From contig OZ023274.1 in NCBI GenBank assembly GCA_964007475.1, forward strand, positions 50,921,678-50,985,677: a DNA stretch of 64,000 nt, written 5' to 3'. Under the pieces are notes generated by a model, which saw nothing but the letters and a program-made list of their open reading frames with translations, ran no database searches and was not told where the DNA came from. Both the position numbers and the translations under genes were made by a program. The DNA is from Hybos culiciformis. Lineage: Eukaryota; Arthropoda; Insecta; Diptera; Hybotidae. Positions 20,986 through 49,286 of the stretch are shown here, piece after piece (position 1 is the stretch's first letter; every line of letters starts with the position of its first letter).

Positions 20986-21623
20986 CAGTGGCGGCCCGTG
21001 GAAGTTTTGAAAGAGGGTGCTGCAAAAAATAACAACCTCTTTTTTTTTAATTTTAAATGTTTTATGATATATAATACTCATATATCAGTTTTGAAAATTC
21101 AAAAGCAAACAAAATACCTATATCCCATATAAAAATTGTGCTGCTTCTGAAACATGTAAAGAATTACATTCAAAAAATCCCAAAAGAAACAAAAACAATT
21201 TCCCAAATAGGTACTTATTTGTTTTTAAATTTTTAAGAAAGTATACAGCCGCACTGCTTCTGTGGCAGTGTATTTTTCCTTACATTCAAGCCATGAAAAA
21301 AAACTTAACAGCAATAAAAATGTATTAAATTGTTCATGAAAAAAAAATTCCCTGCACTGTGAAATTCGCAGTTCCAAAAAATCTGTTAAAAAGATTTCTG
21401 CAGCTATTTTTGAAAAGTACTTTCTGTATTTTCTATATTTAATTTTCTGTAAGCCTAAAAGTAGGCTACTCTTGTTTATAAAATGTTACAGCAATTGCTT
21501 TTAAAAATAATTTTAAAGTGAGAAAAATTCAGAGCCTACAAAAAATTTTATTTATGAGTTCAATTTTTTGAAATTTCTTGAGGGTTCTGCAGTGTCGCAG
21601 CACCTATGTACGAGCCGCCGCTG
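20986..21623. mobile_element. Non-autonomous hAT-type element (638 bp)
   Basis: The left end CAGTGGCGGCCCGTGG and the reverse complement of the right end, CAGCGGCGGCTCGTAC, form an imperfect terminal inverted repeat. The CA...TG ends with a GGCGG core are typical of hAT transposons, and the element is flanked by a perfect 8-bp duplication (GTTTTAAG), the length hAT transposases make. The interior is AT-rich with GCTGC-type subterminal motifs and no transposase frame, so it must have been mobilised in trans. The perfect duplication suggests a fairly young insertion. Confidence 0.92.
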
Positions 21624-23403: not shown

Positions 23404-23412
23404 CGAAAAATA
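23404..23412. repeat. Left 9-bp target duplication of the foldback transposon
   Basis: CGAAAAATA, identical to 32,431-32,439. Nine base pairs is the usual duplication length for Mutator-like and foldback elements. Confidence 0.85.
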
Positions 23413-24775
23413 GATTCCCGGACAGTTGCCCAAATGACATTTGCCAATCTGACATTTGCCCACGGACATTTGACAATCTGACATTTGACAATCTGACATT
23501 TGACAATCTGACATTTGACAATCTGACATTTGACAATATGACATTTGACAATCTGACATTTGACAATCTGACATTTGACAATCTGACATTTGACAATCTG
23601 ACATTTGACAATCTGACATTTGACAATCTGACATTTGACAATCTGACATTTGACAATATGACATTTGACAATCTGACATTTGACAATCTGACATTTGACA
23701 ATTTGACATTTGACAATCTGACATTTGACAATCTGACATTTGACAATCTGACATTTGACAATGTGACATTTGACAATCTTACATTTGACAATATGACATT
23801 TGACAATCTGACATTTGACAATATGACATTTGACAATCTGACATTTGACAATCTTACATTTGACAATCTGACATTTGCCAACGGATATTTGCCAACGGAC
23901 ATTTGCCAAACGGACATTTGACAATCCGACATTAGCCAACGGACATTTGCCAATTCTACATTTGCCAACGGACATTTGCCAATTCTACATTTGCCAACGG
24001 ACATTTGCCAATCCTACATTTGCCAACGGACATTTGCCAATCGGACATTTGCCAACGGACATTTGACAATATGACATTTGACAACGGACAGTTGACAATG
24101 TGACATTTGACAATCTGACATTTGACAATCCGACATTTGACCAGTTTTTTCGTTTTACAAAACTTACTTTTTTATGAAAAAATTTACTTTTTTTTTTGAA
24201 AAAATTTACTAACTTTTCGTTAGAATATTGCAGAAAAATCCTAGAATGTTGGAAATAAACCCCAGAACACGCAATTCGCAGTGTATTTATTCACTGTGAT
24301 TTATAAATATACTAGCTACTGTTTTACTTTTGCAAGTGGAATTTTTGTTATCAGGTTTATAGAAAATTTTAAAAGCCAGTTATTTTATAAATTTGGAGAA
24401 AACTAAAAATGAACAGGTTTCCAAACCAAACCAGATTTGTGTTTTTGATCATTTCCTCTTTTTATGTACAAAACTTGAATGAAATCGGACTCCAATCAGG
24501 TTTTAAAATAGCCTGTAATAACCCACGACCCGAGGTAAAGACATGGTGTAAGTTTGATCGATTGAGCGGTAACATATAAGCAGACATACAAACATACTTT
24601 AAGTTTTATATATATAAAAGAAGATAGAAGATATTTATAGTAAAAAAAATATGTAAAATGTGTGTATATAAAACCATAAAGTTAGTACTCTTTATAAGAT
24701 TTTACTAGATGAATTAATCTAAAAATGTAGGTAAATTATTGAAAATGCAGAATTACAAATTTTTTTAAAGGTTTT
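23413..24775. repeat. Left long inverted repeat (arm) of the foldback transposon
   Basis: From outside in: a short terminal segment, the minisatellite (23,421-24,142), then a unique flank (24,143-24,775). The flank is closely matched in reverse complement by 30,200-30,710 and 29,679-29,790. The arm lacks the 378-bp palindromic insertion found in the right arm. It also has a 9-base deletion (missing CGACTCTGA, near 24,319) relative to the right-arm copies. Confidence 0.9.
23421..24142. repeat. 15-bp minisatellite array, left
   Basis: Tandem copies of GACATTTGACAATCT with single-base variants (CTG, ATG, GTG, CTT, TTG in the last bases). Toward the inner end there are blocks of CCAACGGACATTTG and CCAATTCTACATTTG type. 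The unit is a multiple of three and has few stops, so long reading frames of 5-residue repeats arise on both strands. These are a by-product, not evidence of a protein. Confidence 0.97.
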
Positions 24776-24807
24776 TAAAAAATAAATATCATTTCGCAAC
24801 GATTTTA

Positions 24808-25340
24808 AAGAGTCAAATTCTTTAAATTTAGGAATATTCGGCGTTGTTGTTGAAATTTAGTAAATTTATAAGTTTAGTGTTGCGAATTTACACAAATTTT
24901 TGATTTAGTTTTAACACATGTATATAAATTAAATTCTTAATTTGAGTAATATTTATTTTAATATGGTAAATCTTAAACGACATAATGAGTAACTTTACGC
25001 GGCTGCTAACCAGAACGCAACGCCCTTTATTTTCGTTTGAATGTACAGTAGGTTGAGCCAATTCTTAAGTAAATTTAAATTGGATCAAGTCTTCTGTAGC
25101 TTCAAACAAAAATAAAAGGCATTGGCGTTCTGGTTAGCAGCCGCGTAAAAGTTATTCATTATGTTACCATATTTAAGAATTACCATCTTAAAACAAATAT
25201 TATTCGAATTAAGAAAATAATTTATAAACAATAAGCTATTTTTAAAATATCTTACATTTTTCAATGAAATTAGCAACACTGAAATTAGCTTAGGACTAAA
25301 TTACTAAATTTGATTAATAACGCTCAACATTTCAATATTA
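24808..25340. repeat. Inverted pair of transposase 5'-region fragments
   Basis: The segment from the AAAGAGTCAAAT motif near 24,810 through TTACGCGGCTGCTAACCAGAA (ending about 25,016) and on to about 25,040 recurs in reverse orientation at about 25,095-25,335, making a large internal palindrome. The same sequence occurs a third time, in direct orientation, at 28,427-28,690, where it leads into the transposase remnant. Each copy includes a candidate start: ATG at 24,984 (+), at 25,159 (-) and at 28,653 (+). The two intact starts encode MSDFYAAANQ and MNNFYAAANQ; the 24,984 copy has lost a T and is frameshifted. I read these as duplicated 5' ends of the element's transposase gene. Divergence between copies shows they are old. 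Confidence 0.75.
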
Positions 25341-25689
25341 TCTGAACTTGGACCTTAAAACTGACCTTAAAGCGGAACTGACCTGTATACTAACCTGTGA
25401 ACAGGCCTTACTCATACAAAAAAAAGGAAAAAAAATAACTAACCTTTGCGTAAAAGGCCACTTGCAGACAAAAAAGTTAGTTTACAGACAAAAAATGTCA
25501 GTTTGCCAACTTTTATGCTTTTTCCTTGCTTTTTTCTGCCTTTTTTCTATAAATTTGAAAATAAACAAGATGGAAAGAGTTTGTTTACACATCTTTTTTT
25601 TTAAGTGTCAAAAAATAGAGTGTGTACGGGTTTCGTTAAGGTGGCCTTAGGAATAAACCTTTGCAGACAAGTGCAGAAACGGTATTAGG
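25341..25689. other. Unassigned internal segment of the foldback transposon
   Basis: This 350-bp stretch contains repeated CTGACCTTAAAG-like and TTGCAGACAA-like words and a TAAGGTGGCCTTAGG palindrome. A 100-codon frame through it (25,348-25,650) has no recognisable domain. It may be debris of another insertion. Confidence 0.4.
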
Positions 25690-26233
25690 CTCTTTTAAAT
25701 TGGGTATTAATTTTTCTTTCTACGGGTTGTTTTGTTTTTCGCAAACCATTTCCTGCTCTTTTTATCGACTCCATGAATTCTGACCGCATGAATTATGACC
25801 ACGACTGGCGGTCAAAATTAATTTTCGAAATGAATTGACAATTTGACCGCGCCTCAATTTAGAAAAAAAAATTAATTTTGACCACGGCAAAATGTGCGGA
25901 CAAAATTCATTTTCAAAATGAATTTTGGCCGCGACTCTATTTAGAAAAAAAAATGAATTTTGACCGCGACAAAATTTGCGGCTGTATTATGCAGAAATAG
26001 TTTCATCAAAAATATTGCTTAACAAGTATTGAAAATAAAAACAGCTTTTTCATACATTTTGTAGGTCCAATTTTCTTTTTTAAAGAAGCGAATGGGACGT
26101 AGTAGGGGGCTGTCCTTTCGCGATGACGTTATCACCAAGAGGTACTATCGGCCATGGGGACTCAGGAGATATATGTCATTGAAAAACGTAACTGAAATGT
26201 TTTTGAAAAACGGTTTTTTGCAATTTTCTCGGT

Positions 26234-26670
26234 AAAGCCGGGATGTCGTTAAAACAGAATTTAGCAACAGAAACAGAATCCCATACATTTGAACAGAATT
26301 TATTCTGCGACAGAATTTTACAACAGAATTTAGCGACAGAAAAATTCATTCTGTCCACAGAATTTGAATAACCTCAAACGAGGTTATTTTCTGTTTCTGT
26401 TGCCAGAATGTCAATTGAATTTAATTTAATTTTTTTTTGTATTTGTTTATTTACGTTATTTCTAGTTTTATTTTGTCGGAAAATGGGGAAAACAATTAAA
26501 TAATAATAATAAAATAATTTTTAAAATCGTAATGACAAGTAAATCGTTCTGTTTCTGTTTTAAAGGCAGCAATCTCATGAGATTCTGACCAGAATTTCAG
26601 TAGCAGAATAAATTTTTCTGTCGCTGATTCTGTTCTGTTGCTAAATTCTGTTTTAACGACACCCGGGCTT
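26234..26670. mobile_element. MITE with long terminal inverted repeats (~437 bp)
   Basis: The left end, AAGCCGGGATGTCGTT followed by AAAACAGAATTTAGCAAC, is matched by the reverse complement of the right end, AAGCCCGGGTGTCGTT followed by the same word. The inner sequence keeps inverted similarity (AGCGACAGAAAAAT words), so most of the element can fold. Flanks are CGG on both sides, a possible 3-bp duplication. There is no coding frame beyond chance. Confidence 0.8.
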
Positions 26671-26911
26671 AACGGTACATTCTAGAATTATAATTTAATA
26701 AAATTACTTATGTTTTAAAAAAAAAAATCCAAAAATCTCCAAAAACTTCGGAGTAAATTGCATTTATAACTTTTTCACGCATTTGAACTTTTTATCTTAT
26801 ATTTTTGAAACGGCAAATGAAATCAACCCAATTCTTTAATTTTTCTAGAGGTGACAGTTGTACGAAACTTTAAAAAAAAAGTTATTTGAACAACATCCTT
26901 TTGAAAAAAGC

Positions 26912-26919
26912 CTAAAATC
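26912..26919. repeat. Left 8-bp target duplication of nested hAT element
   Basis: CTAAAATC, identical to 27,781-27,788. Confidence 0.88.
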
Positions 26920-27780
26920 CACAGGCGGTTCTAACGGGAGTCGCACACGGCGCGATAGAAAATTGTAGCTTCTATTCTATTCACAATGCCATGAAAACGT
27001 GAATTTTACAAAATGTTTCCTATACTGCAGTCATAGTGGAAAACACAGTATCTACTAAAATCTGAAAAATTTAAGTATTGATGGCATTTGATAGTAAAAA
27101 TCACAAATTTTTGAATACAAAAAATTTGCTAAATTATTTTGGAAAATCGATCCAAAATTTCAAAAAAGTTTTTTGATTGTAAAATGTTTTGTATATTTTG
27201 TTAAAATTATAAAATTTGGTGGCATGTATTTTTAATAATGAAAAAATGCAACATAACTGTACGGAAATACCGTACTATAAAATATACTGAATGAAGAATA
27301 TTAAAAAAAAGAATAATACGACTAATAAACTTTAAACCTATTATTCTCATATTCAGTTTTTATGTAAATACTGTTTTTTTCCCCTATGACTGCGTTCGAC
27401 GTTCATCAAAATATAAAGCGAAAATCTTATAGTCTCAAATCATGTTACCGATTTTGGTGTAATATACCAATTGATAAATGTAGAGGTCAATCCAACAATG
27501 CTGCAAATATCGCGTAAATATTAGGGTCTGCAAGCGCATATAAAAAGCAACATAGTCCAACGCGCTTTACTAACCATGTATGAGCCATTCTTTAAATTTT
27601 GTAATTTAATTATTTTTTGATAATTTAGTTTATAGAAATAATATTTAAATGAAATTGATTTTGTTTGAGGTTTTTCATTAAATTTTAATTAATATTGTTT
27701 TATTTTATTTTAATTTAGAGAGTAGAGGCCCAATTTTTTTTTCAGCGCCAGGGGCCCCGACACCGTTAAAACCGCCTCTG
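26920..27780. mobile_element. Non-autonomous hAT-type element (861 bp), nested
   Basis: The left end CACAGGCGGTTCTAACGGG and the reverse complement of the right end, CAGAGGCGGTTTTAACGGT, form an inverted repeat with the CA...TG and GGCGG features of hAT ends. A perfect 8-bp duplication (CTAAAATC) flanks it. The interior shows no transposase frame. It resembles the 20,986 element in the GGCGG core but not in the rest of the end, so it is a different family. Confidence 0.88.
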
Positions 27781-27788
27781 CTAAAATC
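27781..27788. repeat. Right 8-bp target duplication of nested hAT element
   Basis: CTAAAATC, the partner of 26,912-26,919. Confidence 0.88.
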
Positions 27789-28426
27789 GCCCCGAACCGC
27801 CTAGGACACATTTTTTTATTATTTTTTTTCTTGACGGGGTTCGCGCGAACGAATGGGACGCGGTATGAAAAAATTTAAAATGAATAGTATCTTCTCCATA
27901 ACTTTTCTGCATAATACTCACGTTCCCGGCAGCAACTCAATTAAAAACAATGAATTTTGACCGCGGCAAAATGTGCGGACAAAATTCATTTTCAAAATGA
28001 ATTTTGGCCACGACTCAATTTATAAAAAAAATGAATTTTGACCGCGGGAAAATGTGCGGGCAAAATTCATTTTCAAAATGAATTTTGACCGCGCCTCAAT
28101 TTATAACAAAAATGAAATTTGACCGCGCGGTCAACAGACATTTTGTCCGCGCCTCAATTTATCCGCGCCTCAATTCATAAAAAAAATGTAATTTGACCGC
28201 GCGGTCAACAGACATTTTGTTGCTCGGAAAAATGAATTTTGCCCGCTCATACAAACTTTTTCCGAGTTCATAATTCATGCGGTCATAATTCAGTGCTAAC
28301 TTTTTATCAGCTAATGTTATGGATGAGCTCCAAGAGGACTCATAAAAAAAGCGGAAAATGATTTGCTAAATCCAAAACAACCCGTAAAAAGAAAAATAAA
28401 TATATGGCTATTTCCAATATTTTAAA

Positions 28427-28690
28427 GAGTCAAATCCTTTAATTCTAATATTAAAATGTTCGGCGTTGTTGGTTAAATTTAGTTAATATATAAGTTTAGT
28501 GTTGTTAATTTAGAAAACTTTTTGATTTTATTAAAAAATATAAGATATTTTAAAAATTGTTTTAATACAATATATTTAACTTATTTTCTTAATTCGAATA
28601 AAATTTATCTTAAAATGATAATTCTTAATTATGGTAAATCTTGAATAACATAATGAGTGACTTTTACGCGGCTGCTAACCAGAAGCCAAT
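28427..28690 (+). repeat. Third copy of the transposase 5' region
   Basis: A direct repeat of 24,808-25,016, sharing TTTTAAAGAGTCAAAT, TTCGGCGTTGTTG, TAAGTTTAGTGTTG and TTACGCGGCTGCTAACCAGAA in the same order. This copy is continuous with the transposase remnant, so it is probably the original location. Confidence 0.78.
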
Positions 28691-29582
28691 GAAGATGTAC
28701 AAAAAGGAAGTCCTTAAGATGTCTTGCGTTATTGAAGGAAAAATATGACGTCGTTATAGAAGTGAGAAATGAACATAACCATGCTGCGGATTTGACCAAA
28801 TCCAAGAAAAGATTGGCAGCAAATAAAATGAAAGAAGCAGCTTCTAGCTCAATAAGAGGGAGCACCAGTAAAATTTATCAGAGCATTCTTTCCAAAGAAG
28901 GAAAAAGCCAAGAAGAAATAGATAATTTGGCTCTAATTCTGCCAGAAAAGGAAACTTGTTTGACTCTTATAAGGAGAAATTATAGAATAGTTATAACACA
29001 AAAGGAGCCGCAAGAAATACCCGAAGAAGTGAAAAAGCCGAAAAAAGAGGACAAGTCTTAAGCCCATATATCTTTGAAGGGCGATCAAAGGAGTATAAGT
29101 CAATTTTTTACAAGAACGAAATACAATAATGTATATATTTGGTTTTTGTAAAAAATTGACTTATTTTCCTATGATCGCCCTTCAAAGATATAATATGCGA
29201 TTTTGACCATACAACAATGAAAGGCATATGGAACATGGACGCTACGTTCGTCTACCTTCATCTAGCAAAAAATATATATGGCAAAGTTAAAAAAGAAGGA
29301 CTTCGAATTGTATATATTATATTTATTATACATTATATATTATATTATATATACATACACATATTATATTATATATGTTCTGCCAGTGCGCTCATCATTT
29401 CAAAATTTTGGTCTTTTTTAAATTATTTCATCTAGCAAAAATTTTTTTTTGGCAAAGTTAGAAAAGAAGGACTCCAAATTACGTTTATTAACGATATGGA
29501 ATTTCAGAAAGCAATCCGAATGCTGGTGGCCCTGTCATTTTTGAAACCTGATGACATTTCCGATTTGTTCATGAAAATTTGA
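28653..29582 (+). pseudogene. Degenerate FLYWCH / Mutator-like (Phantom-type) transposase
   Basis: A candidate start at 28,653 gives MSDFYAAANQK, after which the frame is damaged. From about 28,693 a FLYWCH-finger C-terminal half is legible: a TGA where the usual Trp would stand, then CTKRKSLRCLALLKEKYDVV and a closing EHNH, fitting the family's W-x-C...C-x-A...H-x-H pattern. An open stretch runs to 29,061. After a MITE insertion (29,071-29,188), a fragment with WNMDATF (from 29,217) resembles the D-x-T-F start of Mutator-like transposase cores. A 160-bp partial duplication follows (the CTAGCAAAAA...GGCAAAGTTA words at about 29,262 and 29,434). The last part (29,454-29,582) encodes a C-terminal piece including FQKAIRMLVALSFLKPDDIS. 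Premature stops, frameshifts and a large internal deletion make it non-functional. Its position just inside the right arm suggests it was the element's own transposase. Confidence 0.72.
29071..29188. mobile_element. 118-bp palindromic MITE inside the transposase
   Basis: The ends TCTTTGAAGGGCGATCA and TGATCGCCCTTCAAAGA are reverse complements, and the arms continue as a long imperfect palindrome (AAGTCAATTTTTTAC and its complement). The two arms are distinguishable: the left has AAAGGAGTATAAGTC, the right GACTTATTTTCCTATGATC. Another locus of the same family is at 49,037-49,286. Flanks ATATA/TATA suggest insertion at a TA-rich site. It interrupts the transposase remnant, so it arrived after, or helped cause, its death. 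Confidence 0.88.
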
Positions 29583-29790
29583 GAATGCTATCCGGGAAAG
29601 AGTTTAAGAAATATATATATATGTATTTTGAAAATACACATATAAAACAATCGATCTTTTCCCTCCAACGACATGGACAAACCTTTAAAAAAAATTTGTA
29701 ATTCTGCATTTTCAATGATTTACCTACATTTTTAGATTAATTCATCTCGTAAAATATTATAAAGACTACTAACTTTATGGTTTTATGTAT

Positions 29791-30168
29791 GTTACGGTGA
29801 ATGTACGAATTCCGGGGAATATGAGTTTAAAAACCAGTAATTTTAATATTACATTACATTTATCGGCCCGATTGGCCCCATTTTTGTGTTGGGCGTATAG
29901 GGTTTACCGTTATCCAAAATAGGGGGGTGCGGGGTGGCGGACGGGCGAACTGGTGGTCGGTCAGTTGAATTTGCGGCGCGCGCCGTAAAATCCACTGGCC
30001 GACCACCAGTTCGCCCGCCCGCCACCGCGAACCTACCTATTTGGATAAGGAGTAAACCCCCTACGCCCTACATAAAAATGGGGCCAATCGGGCCGGTAAA
30101 TGTACTGTAATATTAACATTTACCAAAAGTAAACTCACATTCCCTGGAATTCGTACATTCACCGTAAC
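29791..30168. mobile_element. 378-bp palindromic MITE in the right arm
   Basis: The ends GTTACGGTGAATGTACGAAT and its complement frame a nearly full-length palindrome with a GC-rich centre (GCGGCGCGCGCCG near 29,972). Paired words include GGCCCGATTGGCCCCA and ACCACCAGTTCGCCCG with their complements. The corresponding site in the left arm (around 24,665-24,680) lacks it and reads straight through, giving an empty-site control. Imperfect 6-bp flanks ATGTAT / ATATAC may be the target duplication. GC content is much higher than the host arm. Confidence 0.9.
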
Positions 30169-30472
30169 ATATACACACATTTACATATTTTTTTTACTAT
30201 AAATATCTTCTTTCTTCTTAAAATATATAAAACTTAAAGTATGTTTGTCTGTCTGCTTATATGTTACCGCTCAATCGATCAAACTTACAACATGTCTTTA
30301 CCTCGGGTCGTGGGTTATTACAATCTATTTTAAAACCTGATTGGAGTCCGATTTCATTCAAGTTTTGTACATAAAAAGAGGAAATGATCAAAAATACAAA
30401 TCTGGTTTGGTTTGGAAACCTGTTCATTTTTAGTTTTCTCCAAATTTATAAAATAACTGGCTTTTAAAATTT

Positions 30473-31816
30473 TCTATAAACCTGATAACAAAAATTCCAC
30501 TTGCAAAAGTAAAACAGTCAGAGTCGTAGCTAGTATATTTATAAATCACAGTGAATAAATACACTGCGAATTGCATGTTCTGGGGTTTATTTCCAACATT
30601 CTAGGATTTTTCTGCAATATTCTAACGAAAACTTACTAAATTTTTTCAAAAAAAAAAGTAAATTTTTTCATAAAAAAGTGAGTTTTGTAAAACGAAAAAA
30701 CTGGTCAAATGTCGGATTGTCAAATGTCAGATTGTCAAATGTCACATTGTCAAATGTCCGTTGTCAAATGTCATATTGTCAAATGTCCGTTGGCATTGCT
30801 TTAATGATTCTATAAACCTGATAACAAAAATTCCACTTGCAAAAGTAAAACAGTCAGAGTCGTAGCTAGTATATTTATAAATCACAGTGAATAAATACAC
30901 TGCGAATTGCATGTTCTGGGGTTTATTTCCAACATTCTAGGATTTTTCTGCAATATTCTAACGAAAACTTACTAAATTTTTTCAAAAAAAAAAGTAAATT
31001 TTTTCATAAAAAAGTGAGTTTTGTAAAACGAAAAAACTGGTCAAATGTCGGATTGTCAAATGTCAGATTGTCAAATGTCACATTGTCAAATGTCCGTTGT
31101 CAAATGTCATATTGTCAAATGTCCGTTGGCATTGCTTTAATGATTCTATAAACCTGATAACAAAAATTCCACTTGCAAAAGTAAAACAGTCAGAGTCGTA
31201 GCTAGTATATTTATAAATCACAGTGAATAAATACACTGCGAATTGCATGTTCTGGGGTTTATTTCCAACATTCTAGGATTTTTCTGCAATATTCTAACGA
31301 AAACTTACTAAATTTTTTCAAAAAAAAAACTAAATTTTTTCATAAAAAAGTGAGTTTTGTAAAACGAAAAAACTGGTCAAATGTCGGATTGTCAAATGTC
31401 AGATTGTCAAATGTCACATTGTCAAATGTCCGTTGTCAAATGTCATATTGTCAAATGTCCGTTGGCATTGCTTTAATGATTCTATAAACCTGATAACAAA
31501 AATTCCACTTGCAAAAGTAAAACAGTCAGAGTCGTAGCTAGTATATTTATAAATCACAGTGAATAAATACACTGCGAATTGCATGTTCTGGGGTTTATTT
31601 CCAACATTCTAGGATTTTTCTGCAATATTCTAACGAAAACTTACTAAATTTTTTCAAAAAAAAAAGTAAATTTTTTCATAAAAAAGTGAGTTTTGTAAAA
31701 CGAAAAAACTGGTCAAATGTCGGATTGTCAAATGTCAGATTGTCAAATGTCACATTGTCAAATGTCCGTTGTCAAATGTCATATTGTCAAATGTCCGTTG
31801 GCAAATGTCCGATTGG
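30473..31816. repeat. 336-bp tandem repeat, four units
   Basis: Units start at 30,473, 30,809, 31,145 and 31,481 (TCTATAAACCTGATAAC at each start). Each unit joins about 240 bp of arm flank to about 90 bp of the minisatellite's inner end and closes with TTGGCATTGCTTTAATGAT; the last runs on into the full array. The units look almost identical; I noticed one G-to-C change in unit three (near 31,329). The left arm has a single equivalent, so this is a right-arm amplification. Confidence 0.95.
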
Positions 31817-32423
31817 CAAATGTCCGTTGGCAAATGTAGGATTGGCAAATGTCCGTTGGCAAATGTAGAATTGGCAAATGTCCGTTGGCAAATGTAGAAT
31901 TGGCAAATGTCCGTTGGCAAATGTCGGATTGTCAAATGTCCGATTTTCATGGGCAAATGTCCTGTGGCAAATGTCCGTTGGCAAATGTCAGATTGTCAAA
32001 TGTAAGATTGTCAAATGTCAGATTGTCAAATGTCATATTGTCAAATGTCAGATTGTCAAATGTCATATTGTCAAATGTAAGATTGTCAAATGTCACATTG
32101 TCAAATGTCAGATTGTCAAATGTCAGATTGTCAAATGTCAGATTGTCAAATGTCAGATTGTCAAATGTCAGATTGTCAAATGTCATATTGTCAAATGTCA
32201 GATTGTCAAATGTCAGATTGTCAAATGTCAGATTGTCAAATGTCAGATTGTCAAATGTCAGATTGTCAAATGTCATATTGTCAAATGTCAGATTGTCAAA
32301 TGTCAGATTGTCAAATGTCAGATTGTCAAATGTCAGATTGTCAAATGTCAGATTGTCAAATGTCAGATTGTCAAATGTCCGTGGGCAAATGTCAGATTGG
32401 CAAATGTCTTTTGGGCAACTGTC
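31711..32423. repeat. 15-bp minisatellite array, right
   Basis: Tandem AGATTGTCAAATGTC units, the reverse complement of the left array. The order of variant units from the inner end is the same as in the left arm: TAAGATTG, CAGATTG, CATATTG, CAGATTG, CATATTG, TAAGATTG, CACATTG, then runs of CAGATTG broken by two CATATTG. The lengths of the CAGATTG runs differ (5, 5, 6 here against about 6, 7, 4 on the left). Confidence 0.96.
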
Positions 32424-32430
32424 TGCCCCC

Positions 32431-32439
32431 CGAAAAATA
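32431..32439. repeat. Right 9-bp target duplication of the foldback transposon
   Basis: CGAAAAATA, the partner of 23,404-23,412. Confidence 0.85.
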
Positions 32440-33687: not shown

Positions 33688-36600
33688 ATTAAAATTATTC
33701 AAATATTTTAATTCAAGAATTTTTGGAATAACATTAATTTTCTTGGTACTAAAAATTATGCCTCTGGGCATTAATTTTACGATTTTAGCGCAGTTTGTAC
33801 TTGATATGATACCGAAAGAACTTAAATATTGTTTTTTTTAATAAAAAAAAATGTATTTGTTGTTGTTTTGTGTATAAAAATACTAGAACTTGATTTAATG
33901 CCAAAAGTCCTAAAGTTTAGTACGCCTTTTTTGGCTCAGTGTAGGTAAATTAATTTAGAAGATTGAATTGAAAGAGAAACGCGATACTTAATTAACTATT
34001 ATTTTTACATTTTAACTAACTTCAATATTGTTCTCATAATATCATCATCATCATACTTTTGACACTCAATAAAGTAATTTTACGCATTTTAACTATATAA
34101 ATATTCTAAAACAAAAATAGTTAATTTATTGCAAATAGAACGCCATTAAAAAGAAAATTTCATTCGTAATGCTAATTTGTAATCGATCATCGAACTTCCT
34201 CCCTCTTTGAATTTTATATATAAAATTTAGAGTACCTATGAATGTATAAAAATTTCATTACGAAAAATATCAAAATATTCCTTTTTTATTATTATTTTTT
34301 TCATTCAAAATAAAATCAAATTTCATGTCGTATTATGAGTATTTTGTTGACTAATTTATCAAGTCCCTATAGTGCTTACATGTATTTAATATTCATAAAA
34401 TGTTAAATTTACCATAAATTTTATGTTAATGTGAAATCACTTTAATATAAAAGCAAAAAAAAAAAAATAAAATAAAAAAAAATTAAACGAAAACCATAAC
34501 AAAAAAGGCCACATATAAATTAAAAATATTCTGGTTGAAATACAAAAAAAAAAATAGAGAATTAAAAGCTTGAATATTAATTCATTATTTGAATATTAGG
34601 ATATTAGGAAGCAAAAAAATTCAGGTTAGATTAAAAAAAAAAAATTATTTTTAATGAAAAAAAAGAGGAATAAAAATAAAAATATTCACATAATAATATA
34701 CGTACAGAAGAAAAATGAGTCATGATCATGCAAAAAATTAATAAGTTCACCTTCCTTAATCTTTTAAGTTTTATATTCTTAAATGTCGTATTTTTTAAAT
34801 TTATTTAGGTAATTTAATTTGATGCAGAAGGAATGTCTACTTCATCATATTCTCAAACTTTTTAGTAATAAGTGATCGCGATGTGAAAAATAAATACATA
34901 GCAATCTTAAAGCCACTTTATTACGAGCATGGACATATTATCATATCCTGAGATAAAAATTATGAAAAAAAAACATTCAACATTCTCAGTAGTAAAATAT
35001 CAATTCTTTTTTTTTTTCCTCAATTTAAATATAAAAGTAACCTTAAGGACAATTTTTTAACTTAAAAATAAAATGATAATAAATAAGAAATTATTTCACC
35101 CAAAAAAAAATTTTTATTTATCCTTTTTGCATAACAAAAGGTATTAAAAGGAACACGAATTAGAATACATGTGTACTAACACTGCCTTAATCATTATAGT
35201 TTTTATACGAAACCAAAACATTAAAATTTAATGTTCTTTTTTCTATTCGAACCCGTTTCTGTAAAAAAAAAATAAAAAGGATTTTAAATTCTCGTATCCT
35301 AATTAACCTAAAACAACCATAAATTAAATTGATATTCATATAAATTAACATAGAAATATTGAATGATACGTGTATTATTAATTCTCATATAATAACTACT
35401 TACACATATCGTTAGTATATAAAATAAATATATAGTATTCATATAATATATTTATAAATTTATATAATAATAATCAGTTTTATCGAGGTTGTCTGCATCG
35501 TTTAAAATTTTATATTTTTATTAAGAATTATATTATTTATTATATGCATTTTTAAAATTTCAAATTTTTAAATATACTAATGGGTGACAAGTGCGCTAGT
35601 CATCATATAAAAAAAATCTATACACATGTTCTTTGTACAATTTTTTCTTAAATAATTTATAAACTTTTAGTTTTAATGTCTTATTGTCTCTATACAAAAT
35701 ACGATAGTATCATACTTACATTAATGCAAGTAATAGACAATATACTTAATATTCTTTCGAAATCAGGGACTATAATAAATTATGTTTATGTTACCCCTTA
35801 AAGTTTTTCTTTCCCGCAAGATTTATCGAATGAAAATGCTTAGGTTTTTAATAGATTCAGCGAGTCAGTTAAGTTTTTATTGAGAATAATTGATTGCAAT
35901 GGACTACAAAATCTTTATTTCATTCAGCCCTTTTTTTATTGAGTAATATCTTTCAATCAAGTGAGTCATAAAGCCATCCACGGAAATTTAGCGAGTACGG
36001 AGCTCTAACTATGGCGGTTTAACATAGTACCATATAATTTTTACACATTCCTTTATCATAGGATTTAAAGAAGGTAAAAATATCATGTATATCCAATTTA
36101 ATTAGATTTTAAACAGCATCATTGGTAAACTTCTGCGACACGGAATAAAAAAGTGTAAAAAGAGATTTTTGGAAAATATACAAAAAATAAAAACAAGTTA
36201 TTTAAAAAGTGACAAAAATATAAAAATGTTGAACAAAAAAATATGAAAATAAAATTTTTGATACAAAAGTTTATAAAAAAAAAAAAAAATTAGACCGTGG
36301 TGCATCTGAGCTTTAAATTTTCTTTATACAACACATTTTTTTCGTACAAAAAACATTCACTATACTGCACTGTTGTGGTATAAAAATAAAAAAAAATGTT
36401 AAATAGGTAAGTTATAATTATAACAGTGTATACAACTTATTTATGTACAACATTGGGGCAGCATTGTAAATACATGTGTACATATATCCTTAATTGCACA
36501 TAAAAAGAAAAATTAGAGCGGAAGCACTAAAAAATAATACAATTAAAAATCACGCGATTTAGGAAAATGAAAAAACTAAAAAAAAAAAAGAAAATATTTA

Positions 36601-49036: not shown

Positions 49037-49286
49037 TCTTTGAAGGACTTTGTATAAGTCAATTTTTTACAAAAACGAAATACATACATTATTTCTTTGA
49101 AGGGCGATCATAGGAAAATAAGTCTATTTTTTACAAAAACCAAATATATACATTATTTAATAATGTATATATTTGGTTTTTGTAAAAAATTGACTTATTT
49201 TCCTATGATCGCTCTTCAAAGAAATAATGTATGTATTTCGTTTTTGTAAAAAATTGACTTATACTCCTTTGATCGCCCTTCAAAGA
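49037..49286. mobile_element. Nested palindromic MITEs (same family as 29,071)
   Basis: The whole 250 bp is one nested palindrome. The outer arms (49,037-49,093 and 49,223-49,286) have the AAGTC...ACGAAATACATACATT arm type; the left one has lost about 9 bp next to its GAAGG end. The inner unit (49,094-49,222) is a full palindrome of the other arm type (CCTATGATCG...CAAATATATACATTA). The 29,071 copy has one arm of each type. It lies between the 3' end of catalase and the 5' end of AGK. Confidence 0.88.

Follow-up and report, generated by a model that had tools for sequence, protein, structure and literature searches.

A defective Mutator-superfamily foldback transposon in a fly genome and its candidate FLYWCH-MULE transposase

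The window analyzed here is a stretch of 64,000 nucleotides from the genome of Hybos culiciformis (C2:50921678–50985677), in an assembly of 342.4 Mb in 509 contigs, of which C1, C2, and C3 are named below. Positions 23413–32431 of this window are very probably a defective copy of a multicopy foldback transposon of the Mutator superfamily (Phantom/Muta type), for which mobilization in trans is proposed. This window copy was compared with other loci, numbered L009 to L058. A large foldback family of a fly is now joined to a candidate transposase with a FLYWCH finger and a Mutator-like element (MULE) domain.

The two long inverted arms described in the initial annotation were recovered at 23421–24774 and 29679–32423, where the main pieces matched in reverse complement at 94.6–96.2%. 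The arms, of about 1.36 kb, mostly consist of a 15-bp repeat that takes up the greater part of the outer arm and was counted at 47.7 units in the left arm and 46.7 units in the right one. The left outer arm (23421–24141, + strand) contains GACAGTTGCCC and the tandem repeats (GACATTTGACAATCT), and it is followed by an inner arm without minisatellite (24142–24774, +), part of which was seen in other copies. The right inner arm (29679–31711, − strand) includes most of four 336-bp units (30472–31803), and the right outer arm of 15-bp repeats (31712–32423, −) ends in GGGCAACTGTC. Within the window, GACAGTTGCCC was present once per strand, only at the two outer ends of the element, as the matching terminal motifs noted before had indicated. 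The match of arms and end words is far beyond chance.

The 336-bp unit was present in four copies in the right arm and in one copy in the left arm, which accounts for the surplus of 1008 bp (3 × 336 bp) annotated earlier. All of these units mapped to one place in L019, L021, and L027, and by this comparison the surplus units look private to the window copy. An insertion of 378 bp had also been proposed. The stretch itself is real, a self-complementary palindrome of 384 bp at 29788–30171 inside the right inner arm, but it is not private to this copy and was also found in L019, L021, and L027 among the matches listed. The terminal GACAGTTGCCCAAAT is a variant of the 15-bp unit with 10 of its 15 bases in agreement, as would suit an array that arose by growth from the end site. 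Unit counts varied from copy to copy and also from arm to arm. The element thereby has the mark of the foldback class, namely long inverted arms in which tandem repeats occur in variable number.

To define the family, the 25-bp end word was searched genome-wide with up to 3 mismatches. The search returned 210 + 192 matches in 342 Mb, and the reversed pattern used as a control returned 0. Twenty stretches around these matches were fetched; 14 of them held 15 two-ended elements, giving 16 with the window copy, and six (L014–L018 and L024) had no end pair within 10 kb. Cross-pairs in L009 and L013 and reading frames under a complexity limit were left out.

An exact 8-bp target duplication was found in 13 of the 16 paired elements. 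Since L009a and L009b have common flanks, these count as 12 independent sites, each with different flanks and a different 8-mer. The exceptions were L023 with a duplication of 9 bp, L020 with 7 adjacent bases (9 counting shared end bases), and L010 with none adjacent. A length of 8 bp lies within the 8–11 bp of the Mutator superfamily. In the window copy, the duplication GAAAAATA stands at 23405–23412 and 32432–32439. A duplication of 9 bp had been reported at first, and the 9-mer CGAAAAATA does occur on both sides, at 23404 and 32431, with a third copy at 34261, which is about the number expected from composition. However, the C at 32431 is part of the element itself, as the final base of its end TGCCCCCC. 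As judged by eye, the ninth base agreed at only 4 of the 12 independent sites and the first G of the A2 end motif was constant, and the 9-bp duplication was therefore rejected. The genome thus does hold other copies with the same ends and target duplications, as foreseen in the initial annotation, with duplications of 8 bp and not 9; the absence of such copies, named there as a refuting outcome, was not what the search showed.

The joined flanks of the L026 element (C1:33064390) matched window positions 21490–21623 (+ strand) at 92%, and the junction was gapless with a single TTCTTGAG. From this alignment, window 21490–21623 reads as the paralogous empty site of the L026 element. The flanks of L009a gave two weaker spanning matches at 75–80%.

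The arms are mirror images, whereas the outermost 8 bp are not. The left end of the window copy carries the motif A1, GATTCCCG (23413–23420, +), and the right end carries A2, TGCCCCCC on the + strand and GGGGGGCA when read outward (32424–32431, −). All 16 paired elements combined an A1 end with an A2 end (exact or nearly so), each placed on the outer side of GACAGTTGCCC or of a close variant. Exact ends amounted to 136 A1 and 122 A2 genome-wide. Pairs were counted as neighboring inward-facing exact ends on C1 and C2, at most 30 kb apart, among the ends listed (100 A1 and 100 A2). Outside this count lay 36 of the 136 A1 ends, 22 of the 122 A2 ends, eight ends on C3, inexact ends, and pairs more than 30 kb apart.

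Of the 192 ends used, 120 formed 60 pairs and 72 were unpaired. Among these 60 pairs from the ends listed, 57 were mixed A1/A2, none was A1/A1, and 3 were A2/A2, and shuffling of the end labels gave a mean of 30 mixed pairs and a maximum of 45 in 10,000 shuffles. Because many of the pairs derive from a single master copy, the 57 mixed pairs do not amount to 57 separate events, and the shuffle treats them as more independent than they are. The pairs were spaced at 202–306 bp (ten), 0.9–2.0 kb (six), 5.8–10.2 kb (38), and 11.5–28.4 kb (six), and the mixed-end rule was kept in three size classes. A strict rule of one A1 and one A2 was rejected on account of the three A2/A2 pairs. The two 8-mers probably represent different ends of one transposition complex. 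With near-mirror arms and non-mirror outer 8-mers, the family lends itself to a clean test of whether a MULE transposase tells left ends from right ends.

The FLYWCH/Mutator-like coding relic recognized earlier between the arms aligned to an intact transposase of the same genome. Its pieces on the + strand correspond to residues about 37–156, which take in the latter half of the FLYWCH domain (28690–29035, 92% DNA identity to the intact gene), to a section of the MULE domain that surrounds the second catalytic Asp (29185–29319, 75%), and to residues about 287–372, with no match to the Glu388 part (29426–29682, 90%). A displaced C-terminal fragment lies out of order at 28342–28460 (+, 81%). The alignment of the window copy to the intact gene gave no match for the first 36 residues, the D198 stretch, or the E388 stretch. 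Taken alone, the window relic had no Pfam MULE match and a FLYWCH score under the Pfam cut-off.

A search of the genome with this relic returned 106 matches. Fifty-two of them, including the window copy, covered at least 113 of 122 residues at 93–100% identity, with open frames of 119–144 aa. A further 11 covered at least 109 residues at 85–89% identity, with open frames of 236–383 aa. Ten of the 11 make up five inverted pairs with members 7–10 kb apart; the remaining one (C1:74348626) is opposed by a split match at a distance of about 30 kb.

Transposase copies were read at four loci (L053–L056) and at a fifth, L058. By frame length, both exons were open at five loci, two of which were read letter by letter. 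L058 encodes an unbroken protein of 481 residues that has all three catalytic residues, D198, D266, and E388. Its two exons are separated by an 80-bp GT-AG intron. The gene sits between an exact A2 (C1:69636528) and an exact A1 (C1:69664396), 27.9 kb apart. The L056 protein also has 481 residues, but it carries Asp at 388 in place of Glu, so this enzyme may be impaired. In Pfam, the spliced L056 protein scored 51.9 bits for MULE (PF10551, cut-off 27.6) and 30.5 bits for FLYWCH (PF04500, cut-off 23.6). The MULE domain (scored in L056) and the DDE triad (present in L058) are those of the Mutator superfamily, an N-terminal FLYWCH finger followed by MULE (L056) is the arrangement of the Phantom/Muta type, and the first description of a foldback transposon with a Phantom-type relic was borne out. 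Outside in, L053 presents an A2 end, minisatellite, inner arm, and FLYWCH/MULE gene. This arm directly in front of the gene ties the enzyme to ends of this family.

A search of 5.8 billion proteins with the L056 protein returned 35 relatives, the best at 33% identity; MULE was listed in 35 and FLYWCH in 31. Exon 2 alone had no match in the protein database, perhaps from a length limit on candidates, whereas the full protein found the 35. Twenty-nine of these relatives were aligned. D198 was conserved in 28, D266 in 29, and E388 as E in 24 (4 gaps and 1 G), and Cys38, Cys46, His64, and His66 of the FLYWCH finger were kept in 28–29 of the 29. A two-exon FLYWCH-MULE enzyme of 481 residues and of the same lineage is the probable driver of the family, a candidate proposed from its sequence.

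The same broken interior was found in seven long copies: the window copy, L019, L021, L022, L027, L028, and L014. Interior divergence was 0.63–0.81% within a group of five, 1.64% between the window copy and L028, and 2.11–2.30% across. Six of the seven have their own target duplication, and L014 begins at a contig end. A break common to all seven, together with the separate duplications in six, shows that they multiplied after the gene broke. The long copies spread while defective. We also considered that the arms are re-copied from each other at each move, and this was unsupported in the young group over 330–365 bp of inner arm. There, left arms of different elements were 0.6–1.1% apart, and left and right arms within a single element were 4.1–5.0% apart; the arm-to-arm difference was 2.4% in the window copy and 3.4% in L028.

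In the mechanism we propose, the 481-residue transposase would bind the repeated 15-bp units and the end word through its FLYWCH finger, cut at the end 8-mers, and insert the element with an 8-bp staggered cut. Defective copies could hence be mobilized in trans. Unequal exchange or slippage would afterward alter the length of the arms, and the three surplus 336-bp units of the window copy would be an example.

Several points weigh against this account. The mobility of the family and the activity of the enzyme are both read from DNA and protein sequence, and membership in the Phantom clade is likely, judged from domains and architecture and not from a tree. L053, the sole transposase copy read contiguous with a full arm, is missing the first 69 bp of exon 2. 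Upstream of its partner L054, 2.1 kb of sequence contained no arm, and the 2.2 kb read upstream of L056 contained none either. The limits of the 27.9-kb element with L058 and of a 19.7-kb pair on C1 are taken from exact end-word matches only, and inexact ends may lie between them. This 19.7-kb pair has two exact A2 ends, contrary to the one-of-each pattern, and both elements could be segmental duplications. Furthermore, with only 85–89% identity to the relic, the intact group may not be what moves the family.

The 19.7-kb inverted pair just mentioned (C1:79919261–79938950) has two opposed transposase genes, one of them L056, with exons open by frame length. On the reverse strand of L056, at about 750–950, further inverted repeats (TTTCGCGGTTATGAC) lie near the open transposase gene and are possibly the ends of another element.

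As far as a comparison by description goes, it is very unlikely that the element belongs to the FB-NOF family of Drosophila itself. FB-NOF reportedly follows the same plan of long repeat-built arms and a Mutator-like coding relic, and FB4 has arms of about 700 bp and duplications of 9–10 bp (PMC8277862). The duplications found here were 8 bp at 12 independent sites and not 9–10 bp. The nearest relative of the transposase was only 33% identical, and few of the 35 relatives are named, none of them as FB or NOF. Identity with FB-NOF is neither shown nor needed.

We consider it very unlikely that a P-superfamily (Galileo-like) foldback or a hAT-like element is the mover and that the MULE relic is a passenger. 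The hAT and P superfamilies also make 8-bp target duplications, so the duplication length would fit either, and foldback-like arms are said to have evolved in the P-related Galileo. In L053, however, the arm of the family leads straight into the MULE gene. No P or hAT domain was found by Pfam in the frames scanned, which cover the interior in part. Muta1, which is a MULE, makes duplications of 8 or 9 bp (PMC5225508).

That the paired inverted-repeat places are segmental duplications is highly improbable: L009a and L009b, with the same flanks, are at least one local duplication, and the loci at C1:69.6 Mb and C2:27.5 Mb share near-equal spacing to an A1 end and an identical piece of the ATRX gene, but the 12 sites with different flanks and different exact 8-mers, together with the paralogous unoccupied site, refute this explanation for the fetched copies with target duplications (the 20–28 kb elements aside).

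The preferred reading, a Mutator-superfamily foldback family, has close parallels: the family works like Muta1 of Aedes aegypti and Tm1 of root-knot nematodes and is an oversized form of an already known plan. Muta1, classed as a type 2 foldback, and Muta5 have 8- or 9-bp duplications, and their arms consist of a terminal motif and a unit repeated 9 times in tandem, which is 12 bp long in Muta1 and 15 bp long in Muta5 (PMC5225508). Muta1 has a two-exon transposase of 504 aa; Muta has hundreds of non-autonomous derivatives, and about 20% of those of Muta1 carry host gene fragments (PMC5225508). In contrast, Muta arms are 145–151 bp in elements of 3.2–3.5 kb (PMC5225508). In the present family, the arms measure about 1.36 kb and hold about 47 units; long elements are mostly 6–10 kb, and the elements with the candidate transposase are 20–28 kb with two opposed genes. 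Asymmetric end 8-mers are unmentioned for Muta in the part of the source consulted (PMC5225508).

Tm1 does have asymmetric 7-bp motifs, also designated A1 and A2, outside its inverted repeat, as well as a tandem motif of 13–15 bp with variable unit number, a FLYWCH-MULE transposase of 496 aa, derivatives resembling miniature inverted-repeat transposable elements, and a nested element (PMC3169594). Its ends were mixed in 24 of 39 and 20 of 22 elements; six had one motif only, and one had A2 at both ends (PMC3169594). Tm1, which is described as senescent, differs in its 9-bp duplications, 1–9 units, transposase-coding copy of 2.6 kb, and other end-motif letters (PMC3169594).

Phantom group 20 resembles the family in its invertebrate hosts, FLYWCH in some members, duplications of 8–10 bp, and a minisatellite in aphid members, and it differs, as compared by description, in arms of 18–613 bp or none (PMC6446971). 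FB4/Ssk-FB4 of Drosophila shares the foldback arms, rearranged copies, a captured host gene, and the non-autonomous state (PMC8277862). By description, FB4 differs in its duplications of 9–10 bp and in a transposase called unknown (PMC8277862), whereas a candidate enzyme is available here; a fly system with both arms and enzyme would make such a question testable. A 2026 survey of arthropod MULEs includes dipteran MULEs and transposases of 361–487 aa, but its complete dipteran MULEs are 2.0–5.3 kb with arms of 72–431 bp; arms above 1 kb are given for other orders, up to 1527 bp in Hemiptera (PMC13359780). The words foldback and tandem are absent from the main text of this survey (PMC13359780). 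Our literature searches, in which subscription journals were thinly covered, found no title or abstract that names the present element.

Exons of two host genes, ATRX and cyclin A, were found beside the transposase. In L055 (C1:69651200–69655200), an open frame of 148 codons precedes the transposase start and runs into it, and by eye this leader contains an ATRX-like part followed by a cyclin part. The frame next to it on the upstream side scored 64.3 bits for Helicase_C and matched ATRX at 181 bits, compared to 81 for the next protein. Further upstream exons with introns are presumably ATRX-like as well, as we recognized them by eye. ATRX exons were located at four transposase loci, namely C1:69653294 and C2:27470405, whose pieces are identical to each other, C1:74379416 (74%), and C2:30281844 (88%), and the pieces at the latter two are shorter and decayed. 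A copy at C3:7323209, with 97% identity, one stop in the stretch (intron included), and a distance of 34 kb from the nearest exact end among those listed, is probably the host ATRX gene. Introns retained in the captured ATRX argue for capture at the DNA level.

The cyclin A exon (34.4 bits) lies between ATRX and the transposase. It was found just upstream of the transposase at five loci, four of which also have ATRX; in L054 it stands alone without ATRX, as a fragment (positions 1981–2127, C1:86097380) in frame with the transposase start. A source-like cyclin A at C2:54429256, with 75% identity over 36 residues, is probably the host gene. Among six inverted pairs, five have this cyclin A leader on one member only and the sixth has none. 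If the outer limits of these putative elements, placed by exact-match position only, are right, host exons with a separate source-like gene would stand within them, in the manner of Pack-MULE-type capture. The exons beside the transposase are a likely animal case of host-gene capture by the Mutator superfamily. Their in-frame joins could be chance.

A more elaborate form of the driver is unlikely. It would be a compound, largely palindromic element of 20–28 kb in which two transposase genes oppose each other, the first under a leader of its own and the second under a leader captured from the host. The cyclin A exon and the exons of the chromatin remodeler ATRX, which would continue in open frame to the transposase, would be kept because they help, through expression in dividing cells or through interference with ATRX-dependent silencing.

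The window contains further features and genes. A self-complementary stretch (73%) at 24825–25339 belongs to the interior common to other full-length copies. An inner region at 25690–28410, with limits set by eye, has tandem and inverted GACCGCG-type repeats and is apparently a nested foldback-like sequence; this GACCGCG-rich minisatellite structure is carried in the interior of all seven long copies. Rfam at the gathering threshold and a tRNA scan had no matches, and the minisatellite had 0 exact matches in viral contigs. According to the domain scan, the window genes include those for an LSM-domain (Sm) protein, acylglycerol kinase, catalase, and a SAND-domain protein. The best named relative of the acylglycerol kinase exon was from the dolichopodid fly Condylostylus longicornis (53% identity) and the next named relatives were from other Diptera, which points to a fly, probably a brachyceran, in agreement with the insect host first suggested. 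Inside the transposase relic lies a 126-bp palindrome at 29067–29192, and its unit recurs as a small array at window positions 49052–49286 with 92–100% identity to the unit.

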